DNA of 64,000 nucleotides. Origin: Bdellovibrio sp. GT3 (lineage in GTDB: Bacteria; Bdellovibrionota; Bdellovibrionia; Bdellovibrionales; Bdellovibrionaceae). The stretch lies in contig NZ_JBBNAD010000006.1 of assembly GCF_037996765.1 (NCBI RefSeq), positions 310,001-374,000 on the forward strand, read 5' to 3'. This document shows positions 3,723-55,555 of this stretch, in pieces (the first letter of the stretch is position 1; each line of letters begins with the position of its first letter). Below the pieces are notes generated by a model. That model was not told the DNA's origin and made no database searches. It worked only from the letters and a program-made list of their open reading frames with translations. A program made the position numbers and the translations under genes.

Positions 3723-3777
3723 GCTAAATCAAGCGCTCCAAATTGAGCTTCCTGTTCACAATAGTAAACGTACGCCC

Positions 3778-48800: not shown

Positions 48801-49814
48801 CCATTCAAATTCGCGAGTCATGTCAAAATCGATAAAGCGAACTGGCAGTGATTTTTGCGAGTTTTTACCCTGGATATAGACTTCCAACTGACCTTGATTA
48901 AGTTTGGTCGCGACGTTAGCCAGAACCACCTGCATGATCTCTTCGACTTCACGCAAAGCCTGACTGATAAACAAATTATCCCGCTGCAGAGTCAAAGGCC
49001 ACTTATCAAATACTGAATCCGGCTTGCGCGGTTGTGGCAGCAGATCTTTTGGCACATTTTTATACAATGGATGGCGTAGGATATCCCGGCCTGAAATCTG
49101 CACACCATTGCTGAAGTTATAACGAATCATGCCGGCAATACGATTTTGTTCGTTCACTTCGTTAAAAAAGTTCTCTGAATACGCTGTCAGCTTGCGACGA
49201 AAAACATCCGGCAGATTCCACAGAGTCGGTGCCAGGCTTTCCTGTTCTTTGCTGACATCAAGAAGTCGATGAGGTTCAGAAACTTCATTCAACAGTGATG
49301 TCAAAGTTTCGCCACGCAATACCGGTGCTTCTTCGACGTATAAAGTGATAGATTGCAAAAAACCAGTGGTCTCTGCCTGACCTGACAACCCCTGCTGCCT
49401 GTGTTGACGTGGACCACGCAATTCTTCAGAAAGCTTTTCAATGCGTGGATCTGCAGGCACACCCTCTTCCAGAGTTAACGCCTGCCACAAAACAACGTAT
49501 GAAGCCCATTGATGCGAACACGTGATCTTGGTATCACCGCGTGTTCCGCAATTATCGCAACGAAAATCCAAAACGCCGGAGGTTTCATCCTGAAGGACTT
49601 TGACTGAACACTTCACGTCCTCTTTGCGGTCATCAATGAAAACTTTCAACTGCATGGTGCCGGAGGCATTGGATTGCATCTCATAGCCATCAAAACCACC
49701 GTCCGCGACCAGCTCCAGTCCTTCTGCAAATTCACGCTGCTCCCCCAGCGGCACACGCTCGCTAGGATGACGTAACTGAGAGACATTTTGAAGGCTCATG
49801 GGAGCTAGAAACAC
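45822..49814 (-). CDS. SWIM zinc-finger and SNF2 family helicase
   Basis: The 1330-residue protein starts at GTG 49814, with AAAGGA 6 nt upstream; an ATG at 49799 has no such site. Near the N-terminus a SWIM-like zinc motif is visible (CDNCGTRG and TCSH, about residues 83-96). The C-terminal ~450 residues are an SNF2/Rad54-type motor: Walker A DDMGLGKT, DEAQ, TGTPMEN, and a helicase C domain ending in ATDRAHRLGQ. The long middle region is typical of bacterial SNF2 proteins and unassigned. It probably remodels DNA- or RNA-protein complexes. It is divergent from the alkylsulfatase gene. Confidence 0.88.
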   Translation of the reverse strand: MFLAPMSLQNVSQLRHPSERVPLGEQREFAEGLELVADGGFDGYEMQSNASGTMQLKVFIDDRKEDVKCSVKVLQDETSGVLDFRCDNCGTRGDTKITCSHQWASYVVLWQALTLEEGVPADPRIEKLSEELRGPRQHRQQGLSGQAETTGFLQSITLYVEEAPVLRGETLTSLLNEVSEPHRLLDVSKEQESLAPTLWNLPDVFRRKLTAYSENFFNEVNEQNRIAGMIRYNFSNGVQISGRDILRHPLYKNVPKDLLPQPRKPDSVFDKWPLTLQRDNLFISQALREVEEIMQVVLANVATKLNQGQLEVYIQGKNSQKSLPVRFIDFDMTREFEWRVDFTEKDQLISEFTLISPNRKKPFAFFESFAFEAEEGVVAIHPWYREWSEFVRVLTDVNEDALAFSLTSTEYPRVEIEGELEAKRMVKHLRSRGIPVHITGEVKELSSSQSVMGIYLTETGAFHIQHEARVMGQKDLARSGWTARASLYLHVLSEGLPYFLGADAKDIATRSRGKRDWDLKLLRHLGVLQYLTLETLNWHFAGELTDGRIVEEDEIFKMVQENVQALLVSGTGVVLAREMSLNELCSRNVLVYFDDYVTKTLQALRAKESFYSESGEVILEGAVEREFRLIYEMLKRLVATTSGDAFKKARTSFLSKIWNGDPAKDPTLRTGLFQFPNVRKESSHTHDTIESLQALLPFGFKIYYKGQMLQELSEDDFQVDFLLTSDASEKYFNWFELNPKFFLKGQEIDAQAMSGFGGGGVIEYDGKLYLVPKKQMPSLRRLENFWKKLQGGKSDSKTKGGIGERVYKLPRHQILELLALRSSGVGIRGDHEWKKICDFYDGLGKEPRKFVLPKSMNAELKPYQEYGVQWLQDLYNLRLGALLADDMGLGKTLQTLTFLEDLRVQGELGQVLIVVPSSLIFNWQSEVQKFTPELPLEVFSNKDRDRLGKKLFTGEECVLITTYGLLMEHEDFLAQVKWRTLIFDEAQNLKNITTKRTSAARSLNAQFKVCLTGTPMENHYGEFYSLVDILVPGSLGKIEDFRRQFVNTEMVTREEMDDLKLKIKPLLLRRTKKEILDQLPEKQETKMSIAFEDKQMEIYRDIALSYNQKVQEAMTTNGEASVQLQMLTALLRLRQACSDPAGLPNVRYDKVPPKLETLLESVSEIVESGESALVFTQFLQTLEHTAKLLDKAGIPVFVLHGGIPTAQRQKILAEFNATPGGAVLVMTLKTGGVGLNLTKASYVFHLEPWWNPSVENQATDRAHRLGQSKAVQVFRYIMHESLEEKIEVLKNRKGVKFQNLFGNAESAADLGGNASGALSKEDFDILLGLK

Positions 49815-49944
49815 GCTTTGTCCTTTGTCAATGACACCACATTGTGGGCATCGAACATTATGGGTGATTTTTCACACATTGTCCACCCTTCATTTCCACA
49901 TCTTTTCACTCTCAGAAACAATAAAACACTCAGGAGGAAAGAAA

Positions 49945-51951
49945 ATGCACAAACGTTTGTTGCGAGGGTCTCTCGCTGTCTTATTTGCGACTTCAGTCAG
50001 CCACGGAGCTGAACTTCCGGATGGCAAAGCCACAGAGCATACCAAGCGGGAAAATCAAAAGTACCTGAAGATGCTGGATTTCAATGACAAGGAAGAATTC
50101 GAGCTTGCTCAGAAGGGATTTATAGCAACTTTGGATAATCCTTTGATCAAAGGTAAGGACGGCAAAACTGTCTTTAGCCTTGCCGCGTTTGACTTTGTCA
50201 AAGGGGATGCCGCGCCCGACACAACCAATCCAAGTCTATGGCGTCAATCTCAGCTGACTCGCATTCATGGCTTATTTAAAGTAACTGACAAAATTTATCA
50301 GATTCGTGGATTTGACCTGTCGAATATGACCTTGATCGAGGGGAAAACCGGATGGATTTTGATCGATCCTCTGCTATCCGCTGAAACTGCGGCGGCCGGC
50401 TTGAAGCTGGCAAATGATAAATTGGGACAGCGCCCGGTCAAGGCCGTCATCTACACCCATAGCCACGTGGACCATTTCGCGGGCGCTGGCGGTGTAATCA
50501 CTGAAGCTGATGCGAAATCGAAAAAGGTTCAAGTCATTGCACCAGAAGGATTCATGGAAGAGGCCGTCAGTGAAAACCTCTATGCCGGAAATGCCATGGG
50601 ACGCAGAGCTGACTACATGTACGGTCGAACTTTGCAAAACTCTCCGATTGGAAACTTGGGAACAGGATTGGGGCCTGGCACTGCCATCGGATCAACAACA
50701 TTGATTCCACCAAACAAAACGATCACGAAAACCGGCGAGAAATTGACGGTCGACGGCGTGGAAATTGTTTTCCAGATGGCACCAGGAACTGAAGCGCCTT
50801 CAGAAATGCTCTTCTACTTCCCGCAGATGAAAGCACTTTGCCTCTCCGAGGATGCAACTTCCACCATGCATAATCTGTATACTCTGCGTGGCGCGAAAGT
50901 ACGCAGCCCCGCGGTCTGGACAAACGCACTTTCTGAAACTCTGAGCATGTTTGGATCTAAAGCTGACGTCAGCTTTGCTTCCCATCACTGGCCACGCTGG
51001 GGTAACGCTAAAGTCGTGGAGCATATCTCAAAACAAAGAGACATGTACAAGTTCATCAACGATCAGACCTTGCGGCTGGCGAATCAAGGTTATGACGCCG
51101 AGGAAATTGCGGAGAAAATCAAACTTCCGGATACATTGGCAAAAGAATTTTACAATCGCGGATACTATGGCTCATTAAGCCACAACGTCAAAGCGACTTT
51201 CCAATTGTACTTGGGTTTTTACAACGGAAATCCGGCCACTCTTCACAAACATCCGCGCACGGAAGCAGCCAAGCGTTACGTAGCTGCGATAGGTGGCGCT
51301 TCGAAAGTTATGAAGGTCGGTCGTGAGGCGTTCGACAAGGGTGACTACCGCTGGACTGCTGAACTCGTGAATCATCTGGTTTATGCAGAGCCTAACAACA
51401 AAGAGGCGCGCCAACTTCAGGCGGCGGCTCTTGAGCAATTGGGCTTCCAGGCAGAGAGCGGTCCATGGAGAGACGTTTACCTTTCAGGAGCTGCTGAGCT
51501 GCGTGGACGGGTCCCTGGGGAAGCAACACCTTTCGTGGACACCCGCACTCTTCCATTGGCAATGCTGATCGACTATACAGGCATGCGTCTGAATCCTGAA
51601 AAGACAGCTGGCAAATCCATGAAAATTGGACTGGCACTTAACAATTCCAAGGAAAAACAAACGTTGGAACTAAACAACTCCGTCCTTCACGTAAGAAAAG
51701 CGATCCCGAACGAAAAACTGGATGCCACATACACCATGTCTTCCAGTGACTTTGGAGCTGTGCTTGGCGGAATGGAGTCATCGGCCGATTTACAAAAAAG
51801 CGGCAAGCTCAAATCCACTGGCAAAACCGGAGCACTTAACGAGCTCGTATCTATGCTGGACACATTTGATCACTCCTTCAATCTGATTGCTCCGGTGGTT
51901 GAAAAAACCGGCAAGAGCGATCACATGGCAAGTGCAGAAGCTTCGAACTAA
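49945..51951 (+). CDS. Secreted alkylsulfatase (SdsA/BDS1-like metallo-beta-lactamase)
   Basis: The 668-residue protein starts at the ATG at 49945 behind a perfect AGGAGG (7 nt). A signal peptide ends near Ala22. The metallo-beta-lactamase core has THSHVDHFAG (His172, His174, Asp176, His177). A dimerisation domain and a C-terminal SCP2-like domain follow, as in SdsA1. This family cleaves primary alkyl sulfates such as SDS to alcohol and sulfate. It would act in the periplasm or outside the cell. The open frame from 49798 is upstream of the signal peptide and overlaps the divergent gene. A bidirectional terminator follows. Confidence 0.9.
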   Translation: MHKRLLRGSLAVLFATSVSHGAELPDGKATEHTKRENQKYLKMLDFNDKEEFELAQKGFIATLDNPLIKGKDGKTVFSLAAFDFVKGDAAPDTTNPSLWRQSQLTRIHGLFKVTDKIYQIRGFDLSNMTLIEGKTGWILIDPLLSAETAAAGLKLANDKLGQRPVKAVIYTHSHVDHFAGAGGVITEADAKSKKVQVIAPEGFMEEAVSENLYAGNAMGRRADYMYGRTLQNSPIGNLGTGLGPGTAIGSTTLIPPNKTITKTGEKLTVDGVEIVFQMAPGTEAPSEMLFYFPQMKALCLSEDATSTMHNLYTLRGAKVRSPAVWTNALSETLSMFGSKADVSFASHHWPRWGNAKVVEHISKQRDMYKFINDQTLRLANQGYDAEEIAEKIKLPDTLAKEFYNRGYYGSLSHNVKATFQLYLGFYNGNPATLHKHPRTEAAKRYVAAIGGASKVMKVGREAFDKGDYRWTAELVNHLVYAEPNNKEARQLQAAALEQLGFQAESGPWRDVYLSGAAELRGRVPGEATPFVDTRTLPLAMLIDYTGMRLNPEKTAGKSMKIGLALNNSKEKQTLELNNSVLHVRKAIPNEKLDATYTMSSSDFGAVLGGMESSADLQKSGKLKSTGKTGALNELVSMLDTFDHSFNLIAPVVEKTGKSDHMASAEASN

Positions 51952-52004: not shown

Positions 52005-54089
52005 TCACAAAAACAACTGCACGTTCAAAGAGAACAGACGATCCCCGCCTGGATACAAATAAACATGTCCGTACTGAGTTGGGGCCTCCCGCCAGTATTT
52101 ATTGTTCATCAGATTCTCCACCAGCAATTCTGACTGTAGCTGCACTCCATCCAATTTTAATTTGTAGCCAACACCTGCATCCCAGCGAATCCACCCCGGA
52201 ATCAAAACAGAATTATCCGCAGTGACCGAACGCTCCCCTTCAAAGACTCCACGCCCCTTCAGCGACCACATGGAATTCAAGTGGTATTCGACACCAGAGC
52301 GCACAGTCTGCTTGGGCACGTTCACCGGAATTTTACTATTCAGATTTGCGGCAAGCACGCTGTCTTCGCGACGGGCCTCAAGCACCATGGCAGCCACATA
52401 CCATTCACAACTCACGCACTTGCCCTGCAATTCAACTTCCACTCCCGAATGGCGATCGACACCATCAACCTGATAAAGTGGCGCCTGATCTGTCACCAAT
52501 GGACGATGGATATCGAAGACTGCCACACTCCACTGAATCGTTTGGCCGCCACGCACACCGATCTCGTACTGACGGGAGCGCACATCCGGCAGATACTCGC
52601 CAGGATTGGCGTAAGTACTGCGATTCGGCACAACGTACGCTTCCATTCCTTCGGCATAGCTCGCGTATAGCAGTAGATCCTGCGACCACTGATAGGAAAG
52701 TGCCGCCCAGGGCAAAAGAAACGACTGATAATAATCCGTGCGACGACTGCCGTCCGTTCGCACGGAGCTTCGGTTCACCCCATTCCAACTGCCACCCAAC
52801 CAGGCTGTCCATCTTCCAAGCTCCATCGCATCTGATGCCAGAAATTGCAGATTGGCAGAATCCCGATTGGTACTCTCATCATTCAAGGTCGGATTAGCTG
52901 GAACCTTTGCCGTTCCGTCGACATGCCCCTCCCCCACATAGTTATAAGCCTGACGTTGATAGCGTTCGCGGGTTTTCCAACCCAAAATCGCCGCATTCCA
53001 CTTGTGTTTTATATTCTCGAACTGCACTTGCCCGGCAAATCCAGTGCGCACGGATTCGGTATCGCGAACTTCATTTTCGCTGCGATAGTCATAAAAATCA
53101 AAAGTCCCATCAGAACAATAACGGTCAAAGTTTCCGTCTTTGGTGCAACCATAGGGATACGCCAGGTAGTCATCATTTTTAAGAGCTTGCATTCCCGCGG
53201 ATAAATTCCATTGCAGGTTTTCATGCACGGCCATGGAATACTGCACACTTCCAGTTAAAGCCCCAAACACCACGGGCTCACTCCAGGATTGGTTATTAAG
53301 ATTGATGTTAGGATTCTGAACCTCGGGCAAAGCATCCCCCAGAAGACTCATGCCGGGTTGACTGGGTTGCGACCGCCTTGACCACTCAAGCTCCGCATCC
53401 AGCAAACCGTATTCACCAATTCGCACACTGATCGCGCCGGCCACTAAAGATCGACTGCCTTTTGCATGTTTTAAGTGTGGCGAGATATTTTCCTGAGCGA
53501 GATTAATCCGATAATCCGCGCGTGCGCCGGCGGCACCGCCAACATCAGCGGCCAGCAAAAGATTCCCCGAATCCGACAGATCAACAGAAACGTCTTTGAT
53601 CTTTTTACCGGACTTCTTAACTTCGTAGTCGATAAATCCCCCTGGACTGCTGACACCGGATTGAACACCCGACAGGCCTTTAAGAATCAGGATGCCCGAC
53701 TTGTTTTCCAAGGGAATGGAGGTCTCGGCACTGATGGGCAAACCGTTACGCCGAAAGTTACTGCGATTATCCAAGGTGTATCCGCGAATGGAGACCATGT
53801 CCCAGTAGCCCGTGGCATTGTAGCTGTCACTGAGAGAAGCTTCCAGTGTCGTCAGGTCCGCCAGACGAAGTACGCGGTTCTGCTTTAATTCCTGTTCGGA
53901 ATAGTTCTGGGAACTGACCGGCACCTTTTGTAAATCCTCTGCAGGAAATCCCAAAAGCGAGGCATTGGCCTTAAAGGTATCGTCAATGACAACTGCTTCC
54001 AAAGTCGTTTGCGCCATGGCGGAATTGGCCAGCAGCATGAAGACGATCGCACTGATTAAATGTTTTGATTTTCCGAAGTGTTTTTTCAT
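52005..54089 (-). CDS. TonB-dependent outer membrane receptor under TPP riboswitch control
   Basis: The 694-residue protein has a signal peptide ending near Ala26, a plug domain (SIRGYTLD, RRNGLPIS and GLSGVQSGVSSPGG motifs) and a 22-strand-type barrel ending in Leu-Asn-Val-Gln-Leu-Phe-Leu. By sequence it resembles siderophore receptors of the FhuA/FpvA type. However, its leader carries a full thiamin-pyrophosphate riboswitch, so it probably imports thiamin, a phosphate ester or a precursor. No N-terminal secretin/STN signalling domain is present. The ATG at 54089 lies directly after a hairpin that covers its ribosome site. It ends at a bidirectional terminator. Confidence 0.88.
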   Translation of the reverse strand: MKKHFGKSKHLISAIVFMLLANSAMAQTTLEAVVIDDTFKANASLLGFPAEDLQKVPVSSQNYSEQELKQNRVLRLADLTTLEASLSDSYNATGYWDMVSIRGYTLDNRSNFRRNGLPISAETSIPLENKSGILILKGLSGVQSGVSSPGGFIDYEVKKSGKKIKDVSVDLSDSGNLLLAADVGGAAGARADYRINLAQENISPHLKHAKGSRSLVAGAISVRIGEYGLLDAELEWSRRSQPSQPGMSLLGDALPEVQNPNINLNNQSWSEPVVFGALTGSVQYSMAVHENLQWNLSAGMQALKNDDYLAYPYGCTKDGNFDRYCSDGTFDFYDYRSENEVRDTESVRTGFAGQVQFENIKHKWNAAILGWKTRERYQRQAYNYVGEGHVDGTAKVPANPTLNDESTNRDSANLQFLASDAMELGRWTAWLGGSWNGVNRSSVRTDGSRRTDYYQSFLLPWAALSYQWSQDLLLYASYAEGMEAYVVPNRSTYANPGEYLPDVRSRQYEIGVRGGQTIQWSVAVFDIHRPLVTDQAPLYQVDGVDRHSGVEVELQGKCVSCEWYVAAMVLEARREDSVLAANLNSKIPVNVPKQTVRSGVEYHLNSMWSLKGRGVFEGERSVTADNSVLIPGWIRWDAGVGYKLKLDGVQLQSELLVENLMNNKYWREAPTQYGHVYLYPGGDRLFSLNVQLFL

Positions 54090-54116
54090 CGCATTTCCTT
54101 TGCTCAGGGAAATGCG
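54090..54116 (-). promoter_or_regulatory. Shine-Dalgarno-sequestering hairpin of the TonB receptor gene
   Basis: Perfect 9-bp arms (54090-54098 and 54108-54116) with a 9-nt loop end directly at the ATG. The ribosome site AAAGGAAA (minus strand, 54101-54094) lies partly in the loop and partly in the 3' arm. The 5' arm and loop contain TTCCCTG (54111-54105), which is complementary to CAGGGAA at the 3' end of the TPP aptamer (54155-54149). Confidence 0.75.
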
Positions 54117-54142
54117 CTAACTGTGAATAGATTCAGTTAATT

Positions 54143-54232
54143 AACGACTTCCCTGCGCGAGCATTATCTCTGTCAGGTTCAAAGGGTATTTCTCAGCCTT
54201 CTGCACTACGCAGAAAGCACCCCTAGCTTGTG
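54143..54232 (-). promoter_or_regulatory. TPP (thiamin pyrophosphate) riboswitch, THI element
   Basis: Reading the minus strand, all conserved elements appear in order: CTAGGGGTGC (54227-54218), a P3 stem, GGCTGAGA (54198-54191), ATACCC (54189-54184), AACCTGA (54179-54173), GATAATGC (54168-54161) and GCGCAGGGAAGT (54158-54147). This closely matches the thiM/thiC aptamer. It lies about 58 nt before the start codon of the TonB receptor and should lower expression when TPP is plentiful. Confidence 0.95.
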
Positions 54233-54238
54233 GTGAGC

Positions 54239-54267
54239 TTTATGTCGGAAACACAAAGCCCCGTCAA
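54239..54267 (-). promoter_or_regulatory. Promoter of the TPP riboswitch transcript
   Basis: On the minus strand, TTGACG (54267-54262), a 17-nt spacer and CATAAA (54244-54239). The predicted start of transcription is near 54232, exactly at the 5' end of the aptamer. Confidence 0.65.
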
Positions 54268-54277
54268 TTGTTATGTA

Positions 54278-55555
54278 TTAAATTCTTTTTAGTGCGTCTT
54301 CGATATCGGAAATGATGTCTTTGGCATTCTCAAGACCAATACTTAAGCGAATCGCGCGTGGATCAATTTTACTCTCGCCACGTTTATCTTCAGGAATCGC
54401 TGAGTGAGTCATAAAACCCGGAACTTCGATCAGCGTCTTGGTCAGCCCCAAAGAAACCGCCAAAGTGATCGAATATGAATTTTGTGCGATATCATCGACA
54501 AACTTCTGACAGCGCTTCATATTCCCCTTAACGTTAAAGGAAATCATCGTGCCCGGGCAGAATTTGTTTTCCGGAGAAATCAAATATTTGCGTGCCAATT
54601 TATACTGCGGATGAGACTTCAAACCCGGATAGGTGACAGACTCCACCTTTGGATGTTTTTCCAGGAATTGCGCAACCTTCATTGCCGTCGCCTGCTGTTG
54701 CTCAAAACGAATCGCCTGGGTTGAGATACCATAAACCATAATGTGCCATGCAGAATAAGGATGAATGATCGCACCAAAATCCTTACGTGCAACACGCAAC
54801 ATGCCTTCAAAAGATTTTGGAGCAATCACGGCTCCACCCATTTCCGTACCAAAGCCAGAAATATTTTTGGTCAAACTTTGGATCACGAAATCCACTCCCC
54901 ACTCGATAGGGCGCAGGGACCAAGGGGTTGCGAACGTGTTGTCCACCACCGTATAGATACGGTCATCCACTTTGCGTTTTTTATTTGCCGCTTTTACCAG
55001 AGCTGTGATTTTTGCCAGATCAGCGATTTCCAAAATCGGATTCGATACCGATTCAAAATAAATCACGCGTGTTTGCGGATTGCTAAGTTCCTTTTCAAGG
55101 ACTTTCAAATTATTGACGTCAATCAAGGAGTGTTCGATCCCCAATCGCGGCAACCAGTTTGTGATCAGACTGTAAGTGCAACCATAAAGAGTTTTATGAG
55201 CCACCACACGCTGGCCACTTTTCATAAGAGTCATAAATGTCGAAGAAATGGCACCCATGCCGCTTCCGAACGTGACTGCACTTTCGCCTTTTTCCAAAAC
55301 CGCCAATTGATCTTCCAGCATTTTGGTCGTTGGTTCCTCAAGACGATCATAGATCCAGATTGGCTTATCCTTGGTGTCACCCGCAAAGCTGCTAAAACCC
55401 TCTGCTCCACGAGTCAGTGAACCCAAGCGGAACGTCGTCGATGCCGTCATTGGTGGAATCAAATGGTGAGAAAACTCCCATGACTTGGAAAGGGCTTCTC
55501 CGTGAATGGCTTGTGTTCTTGGTGACAAATGTTTGCGCGCTGACTTTTTGGTCAT
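54278..55555 (-). CDS. Cys/Met metabolism PLP-dependent enzyme
   Basis: The 425-residue protein belongs to the cystathionine gamma-synthase / methionine gamma-lyase fold. It has a YDRLEEPTTKMLE motif, FGSGMGAIS (cofactor phosphate), VVDNTFATP, and the PLP lysine in QSLTKNISG (about Lys230). It could make or break cystathionine or O-acylhomoserine products; the reaction cannot be told apart from sequence. I start at the ATG at 55555 (GGGGG 4 nt upstream); a GTG at 55588 adds 11 unsupported residues. No terminator is seen between it and the riboswitch promoter. Confidence 0.88.
   Translation of the reverse strand: MTKKSARKHLSPRTQAIHGEALSKSWEFSHHLIPPMTASTTFRLGSLTRGAEGFSSFAGDTKDKPIWIYDRLEEPTTKMLEDQLAVLEKGESAVTFGSGMGAISSTFMTLMKSGQRVVAHKTLYGCTYSLITNWLPRLGIEHSLIDVNNLKVLEKELSNPQTRVIYFESVSNPILEIADLAKITALVKAANKKRKVDDRIYTVVDNTFATPWSLRPIEWGVDFVIQSLTKNISGFGTEMGGAVIAPKSFEGMLRVARKDFGAIIHPYSAWHIMVYGISTQAIRFEQQQATAMKVAQFLEKHPKVESVTYPGLKSHPQYKLARKYLISPENKFCPGTMISFNVKGNMKRCQKFVDDIAQNSYSITLAVSLGLTKTLIEVPGFMTHSAIPEDKRGESKIDPRAIRLSIGLENAKDIISDIEDALKRI

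Follow-up and report, generated by a model that had tools for sequence, protein, structure and literature searches.

OMthi (BT2390) of Bacteroides thetaiotaomicron is a TonB-dependent thiamin transporter linked to a TPP riboswitch, a function with genetic support (PMC5613172), and thiamin TonB-dependent receptors have been predicted in several receptor clusters, some of them near hydroxamate-siderophore receptors (PMC2771747). TPP riboswitches are treated in a review as strand-exchange switches (PMC10907184). For Bdellovibrio, a transcriptome paper on strain HD100 reported a c-di-GMP riboswitch and did not mention a TPP riboswitch (PMC3627812), and the thiamin pathway is incomplete in a metabolic model of B. 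bacteriovorus (PMC7529429). Our literature search, outside which most subscription journals lay, found no paper describing a TPP switch in this genus. Here we analyze a 64-kb stretch of the Bdellovibrio sp. GT3 genome (the window) in which a TPP aptamer precedes a TonB-dependent receptor gene. We consider it likely, with a probability of about 0.78, that a translational-OFF TPP switch controls a receptor through which a predator without recognisable thiamin synthesis imports thiamin and/or its phosphates.

A TPP aptamer linked to a TonB-dependent receptor

A cmscan search of the whole window returned the TPP riboswitch (RF00059) as the sole match above the gathering score, at 54234-54133 (minus strand; 62.7 bits, cut-off 54.3, E 6.3e-10) and over the full length of the model (positions 1-105). 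The aptamer was placed at 54144..54234 (-), with the Rfam match extending to 54133. The initial annotation had called a TPP riboswitch at 54143-54232, which corresponds to the aptamer core, from conserved THI-box elements in order on the minus strand before the receptor, and had proposed a run of the Rfam TPP model as a check; the strong match bears out this call. The conserved elements CTAGGGGTGC, GGCTGAGA, ACCCTTTGAACCTGA, GAGATAATGCTC and GCGCAGGGAAG follow in the expected order, and the optional P3a is not present in this aptamer. No second TPP riboswitch was found in the genome (3.58 Mb, 99.97% complete). In an alignment of 21 related aptamers, 96.9% of the cells pair, and double-sided changes were counted in 41 cells, compared with 12.2 after shuffling and 4-15 with partners slid by 1-3 columns, revealing the compensatory change across homologues expected of a TPP riboswitch. 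Nearly all of these changes fall in P3, where five pairs covary, while P2, P4 and P5 are nearly invariant; the aptamer core is invariant across the receptor family.

The gene behind the aptamer (52005..54089, minus strand) encodes a protein of 694 aa with an apparent signal peptide, identified as a TonB-dependent receptor by matches to the plug (PF07715, 37.9 bits) and barrel (PF00593, 112 bits) domains, both over cut-off. Its start codon, at 54089, lies about 55 bases past the aptamer core. The receptor gene converges with an alkyl-sulfatase-type metallo-hydrolase gene at 49798-51951 (+). The upstream gene ends at 54278, followed by a promoter-like TTGACG-17-CATAAA at 54267-54239, with the -35 element TTGACG at 54262..54267 (-) and the -10 element CATAAA at 54239..54244 (-), so that transcription would begin near the aptamer's 5' end. 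Most of the 19 relatives compared have the pattern TTGAC-N16-18-nATAAn 9-14 nt ahead of the aptamer core; its best scores were 9-10 of 12, as against 6.9 in shuffled sequences. A strict promoter scan did not list TTGACG/CATAAA, because the second hexamer ends in A. Since this putative promoter falls after the upstream gene and ahead of the aptamer, the receptor gene's own transcript probably has the aptamer at its 5' end.

Orthologues of the receptor were found in 20 of the 24 genomes of the genus Bdellovibrio, giving a family of 20 members, of which 19 have a TPP site at the receptor gene. The exception, in G022 (L058:5641-7722, +), is the only family member found without the aptamer, and no TPP site was found in any of the four Bdellovibrio genomes without the receptor. 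When 369 genomes of the phylum were searched with a profile, orthologues outside Bdellovibrio came up in only one other genus, in four genomes, all with a TPP aptamer directly upstream (three above the gathering score, one at 49.1 bits). Overall, the OMthi-like arrangement, with a TPP aptamer in the receptor leader, is kept in 23 of 24 receptor-bearing genomes from two genera. The closest named relative, a Bdellovibrio sp. MAG with 54% receptor identity, shows the same arrangement. In another genome (G226), the strand opposite the TPP aptamer has a match to the cobalamin riboswitch about 300 bases away (L129:3521-3586, -; 35.6 bits, cut-off 31.5).

Cargo of the receptor and thiamin genes of the genome

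As the initial annotation had anticipated, the protein sequence alone points to a siderophore receptor. By profile the receptor resembles the iron-siderophore receptors FemA, FhuA and FoxA, the first two being the nearest solved structures, and relatives in a plasmid collection, 27-30% identical to the receptor, are annotated as siderophore receptors; the seven loci of the nearest of these, from Acinetobacter, Pseudomonas and Burkholderia, gave no TPP switch. The score with the TonB-dependent siderophore receptor model TIGR01783 is substantial at 189.3 bits but falls below the cut-off of 223.5, leaving the protein outside that subfamily. An AlphaFold model built from 20 sequences had a mean pLDDT of 57, too poor for a fold search. 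These matches would suit a receptor that imports an iron siderophore, with TPP regulating iron uptake indirectly, for example through cofactor balance. We regard this as improbable, since the receptors form a clade with 100/100 support apart from the Acinetobacter, Pseudomonas and Burkholderia relatives, with the TPP aptamer in 23 of 24, and since TPP riboswitches elsewhere in the order precede thiM-, thiB-, thiC- or YkoE-type genes. The siderophore label of the receptor is, in our judgement, probably wrong. One of the relatives, 28% identical, lies on an Acinetobacter lwoffii plasmid (L098:1201-5225) between genes of a phosphotransferase and a PnuC-family protein, and no TPP switch accompanies it; this cluster, labelled as a siderophore receptor, may serve the uptake of a vitamin.

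The TPP sites of other genera in the order are followed by thiM-type operons, ABC transporters, a YkoE-type transporter, a sodium symporter and thiC. Some of these gene names were assigned by eye from sequence and gene order; ThiC, the symporter family, the YkoE-type permease family, a TPK-like neighbour and the binding protein family were confirmed with Pfam. The gene of a divergent TPK-like protein (L065:4646-5266, +; L074:6126-6728, +) points away from a neighbouring YkoE-type transporter operon under TPP control, and the L074 copy of the protein scores 22.7 bits with PF04263, below the cut-off.

The initial annotation had suggested looking for further thiamin genes, and both ThiL and a thiamin-type ABC transporter came to light. 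Six-frame family searches, run partly on draft genomes, recognised neither ThiC nor ThiE in the window's genome and neither TPK (Pfam family search) nor PnuC/PnuT in any genome of the genus. A single PF02581 match (28.3 bits) was rejected as ThiE, the ORF being nitronate-monooxygenase-like by eye. The divergent relative from L074, used as a query in a search that had no positive control, likewise gave no TPK, and ThiK gave weak partial matches only, under 32 bits against a cut-off of 299. ThiL was over its cut-off in 20 of the 24 genomes, including the window's, and the remaining four carry a weaker ThiL-like match, at 100 bits in G008 and 106-116 bits in the other three; the best match of the divergent G008 protein is to ThiL families.

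The ABC transporter is encoded elsewhere in the genome by a ThiB-ThiP-ThiQ-like operon (L080:2705-5887), the binding protein of which scores 192.9 bits with TIGR01254 (cut-off 93.4). Proteins from ten Bdellovibrio copies of this operon (L080-L089) are about 30-55% identical to those of orthologous, TPP-switched operons from three further genera of this order (L063, L066 and L068), and the upstream genes are similar by eye. Eight Bdellovibrio copies were examined and gave no TPP site, even at a lax threshold. With a switch at the receptor and none found at the ABC operon, it is, as read from these loci, the outer-membrane step that carries the TPP switch in Bdellovibrio, the inner-membrane step being without one.

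Because a TPP switch is kept at the receptor, ThiC, ThiE and TPK are not recognised, and a ThiBPQ-type transporter is present, we infer that the receptor probably takes up thiamin compounds, that is, thiamin or its phosphates. The 23/24 linkage, the RF00059 match and the presence of ThiL point the same way, lending support by inference to the thiamin-type uptake that the initial annotation had read from the riboswitch. In the proposed pathway, the receptor would supply the periplasmic ABC transporter with thiamin compounds, and imported thiamin phosphate would enter the TPP pool directly or through ThiL. Since ThiL alone was recognised, the imported compound could plausibly be TMP or TPP instead of thiamin, an argument that an unrecognised thiamin kinase would remove.

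TPP switches in other bacteria also control precursor transporters, and the receptor could in principle import HMP or a thiazole instead of thiamin. This is very unlikely here, given that no ThiE was found, the sole weak candidate being the nitronate-monooxygenase-like ORF, so that precursors would not be joinable by the known route, and given that the ABC transporter belongs to the ThiB type.

Two leader layouts and a candidate expression platform

In 9 of 19 Bdellovibrio leaders, and in the named MAG, the AUG directly follows the aptamer, and the Shine-Dalgarno sequence (SD) is the aptamer's own AGGGAAG, spanning the 3' strand of P4, the junction and P1 (AAGGAAA in G014). This embedded layout, in which bound TPP would occlude the SD directly, is common among the other TPP-controlled genes of the order. 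It also occurs before a second TonB-dependent receptor behind a TPP aptamer (L070:3587-5623, -, in G072), which has no significant similarity to the window's receptor by BLASTP and, on this comparison, is a separate recruitment to a TPP switch.

In the window's leader, the start is shifted 58 nt downstream and the SD is AAAGGAAA. The SD-like CAGGGAAG (54148..54155, -), comprising the 3' strand of P4, the junction and the start of P1, is the SD in embedded-start relatives and a candidate antisequester arm here. It is complementary, through 7 Watson-Crick pairs and one wobble, to the anti-SD strand UUUCCCUG (54105..54112, -), which is also partly complementary to the distal SD. The CAGGGAAG/UUUCCCUG duplex has a computed energy of -15.5 kcal/mol, equalled by 0.7% of shuffles. 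Immediately before the AUG, an SD-sequestering hairpin of 9 pairs, CGCAUUUCC/GGAAAUGCG (54090..54116, -), reaches -13.0 kcal/mol, equalled by 1.3%, and the two structures were jointly matched by 0 of 1000 shuffles. These computed folds are mutually exclusive, as in a translational OFF platform. No terminator-like site was found in 53950-54450, and no T run follows the SD hairpin, inconsistent with a platform that terminates transcription.

Ensembles forced into the two states gave -51.5 kcal/mol for ON and -52.3 kcal/mol for OFF, a gap of under 1 kcal/mol. In modelled growing transcripts, the ON (antisequester) pairing had a probability of 0.94-0.998 at all but the longest length, where the OFF fold was favoured without ligand. 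In the model, the balance between ON and OFF suits a switch tipped by its ligand but depends on where the transcript is cut. In the proposed mechanism, at low TPP the strand UUUCCCUG would pair with the aptamer arm CAGGGAAG, leaving the ribosome-binding site free so that the receptor is made; with TPP bound, P4 and P1 would lock CAGGGAAG, UUUCCCUG would close on the SD, and translation would stop. That the aptamer is real but no longer regulatory, with constitutive expression of the receptor, is highly unlikely: the B. thetaiotaomicron OMthi transcript barely changed with thiamin, an effect on translation not being excluded there (PMC5613172), but in the present family the core is invariant, P3 has compensatory changes, and in either layout the position of the SD or the start is coupled to the aptamer.

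The window and G011 show clear antisequester pairing, which is weak in other distal-SD relatives. The receptor tree places the window's gene among embedded-SD relatives, and its well-supported branches require the layout to have changed at least four times, so the distal layout in the window is probably derived. The leader in G224 (approximately L130:3694-3720) has an aptamer-embedded SD before an open frame of 8 codons (ATGAAGACCCGTAAACCCACCTCGTAG), with the receptor start at 3772 and an SD of its own, and is a possible intermediate between the two layouts. As a tentative broader proposal, which we would rate at somewhat below even odds, the TPP switch of this one receptor family has passed repeatedly between direct occlusion and strand exchange, the old aptamer SD becoming the antisequester, and the receptor imports prey-derived TPP or TMP and not free thiamin, because neither TPK nor ThiK was recognised.

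Comparison with known systems

The locus would correct a likely siderophore-receptor misannotation for the whole Bdellovibrio receptor family and offers a testable entry route for vitamin B1 into a predator with an incomplete published thiamin pathway (PMC7529429). Its closely related leaders allow two riboswitch working principles to be compared on the same gene. Its points of interest are a vitamin-scavenging predator and the turnover of an expression platform.

About half of the window's relatives, with the SD inside the aptamer and the AUG just after, resemble the direct-occlusion riboswitches such as SAM-II and preQ1, which use a different aptamer from TPP (PMC10907184). The window's own switch looks like strand exchange, as described for TPP riboswitches in the same review (PMC10907184). 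The TPP riboswitch of E. coli tbpA (thiBPQ) turns translation off and has an anti-P1 alternative fold (PMC11487190), as in the mechanism proposed for the window. It controls an inner-membrane ABC transporter (PMC11487190), whereas the Bdellovibrio switch is at an outer-membrane receptor and none was found at the ABC operon.

The predicted thiamin TonB-dependent receptors were, like the window's, assigned by regulation or gene context (PMC2771747); the named ones adjoin PnuT genes (PMC2771747), whereas our search across the phylum found the window's family in two genera only. OMthi occurs with PnuT, tnr3 and a full thiamin pathway (PMC5613172), in contrast to the window's genome, in which no PnuT, TPK, ThiC or ThiE was found and a ThiBPQ-type transporter and ThiL are present. 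OMthi and the window's receptor are alike in being TonB-dependent receptors behind a TPP riboswitch, a likeness of arrangement. TPP-controlled thiamin receptors are already known in other bacteria, and the Bdellovibrio receptor would add to them.
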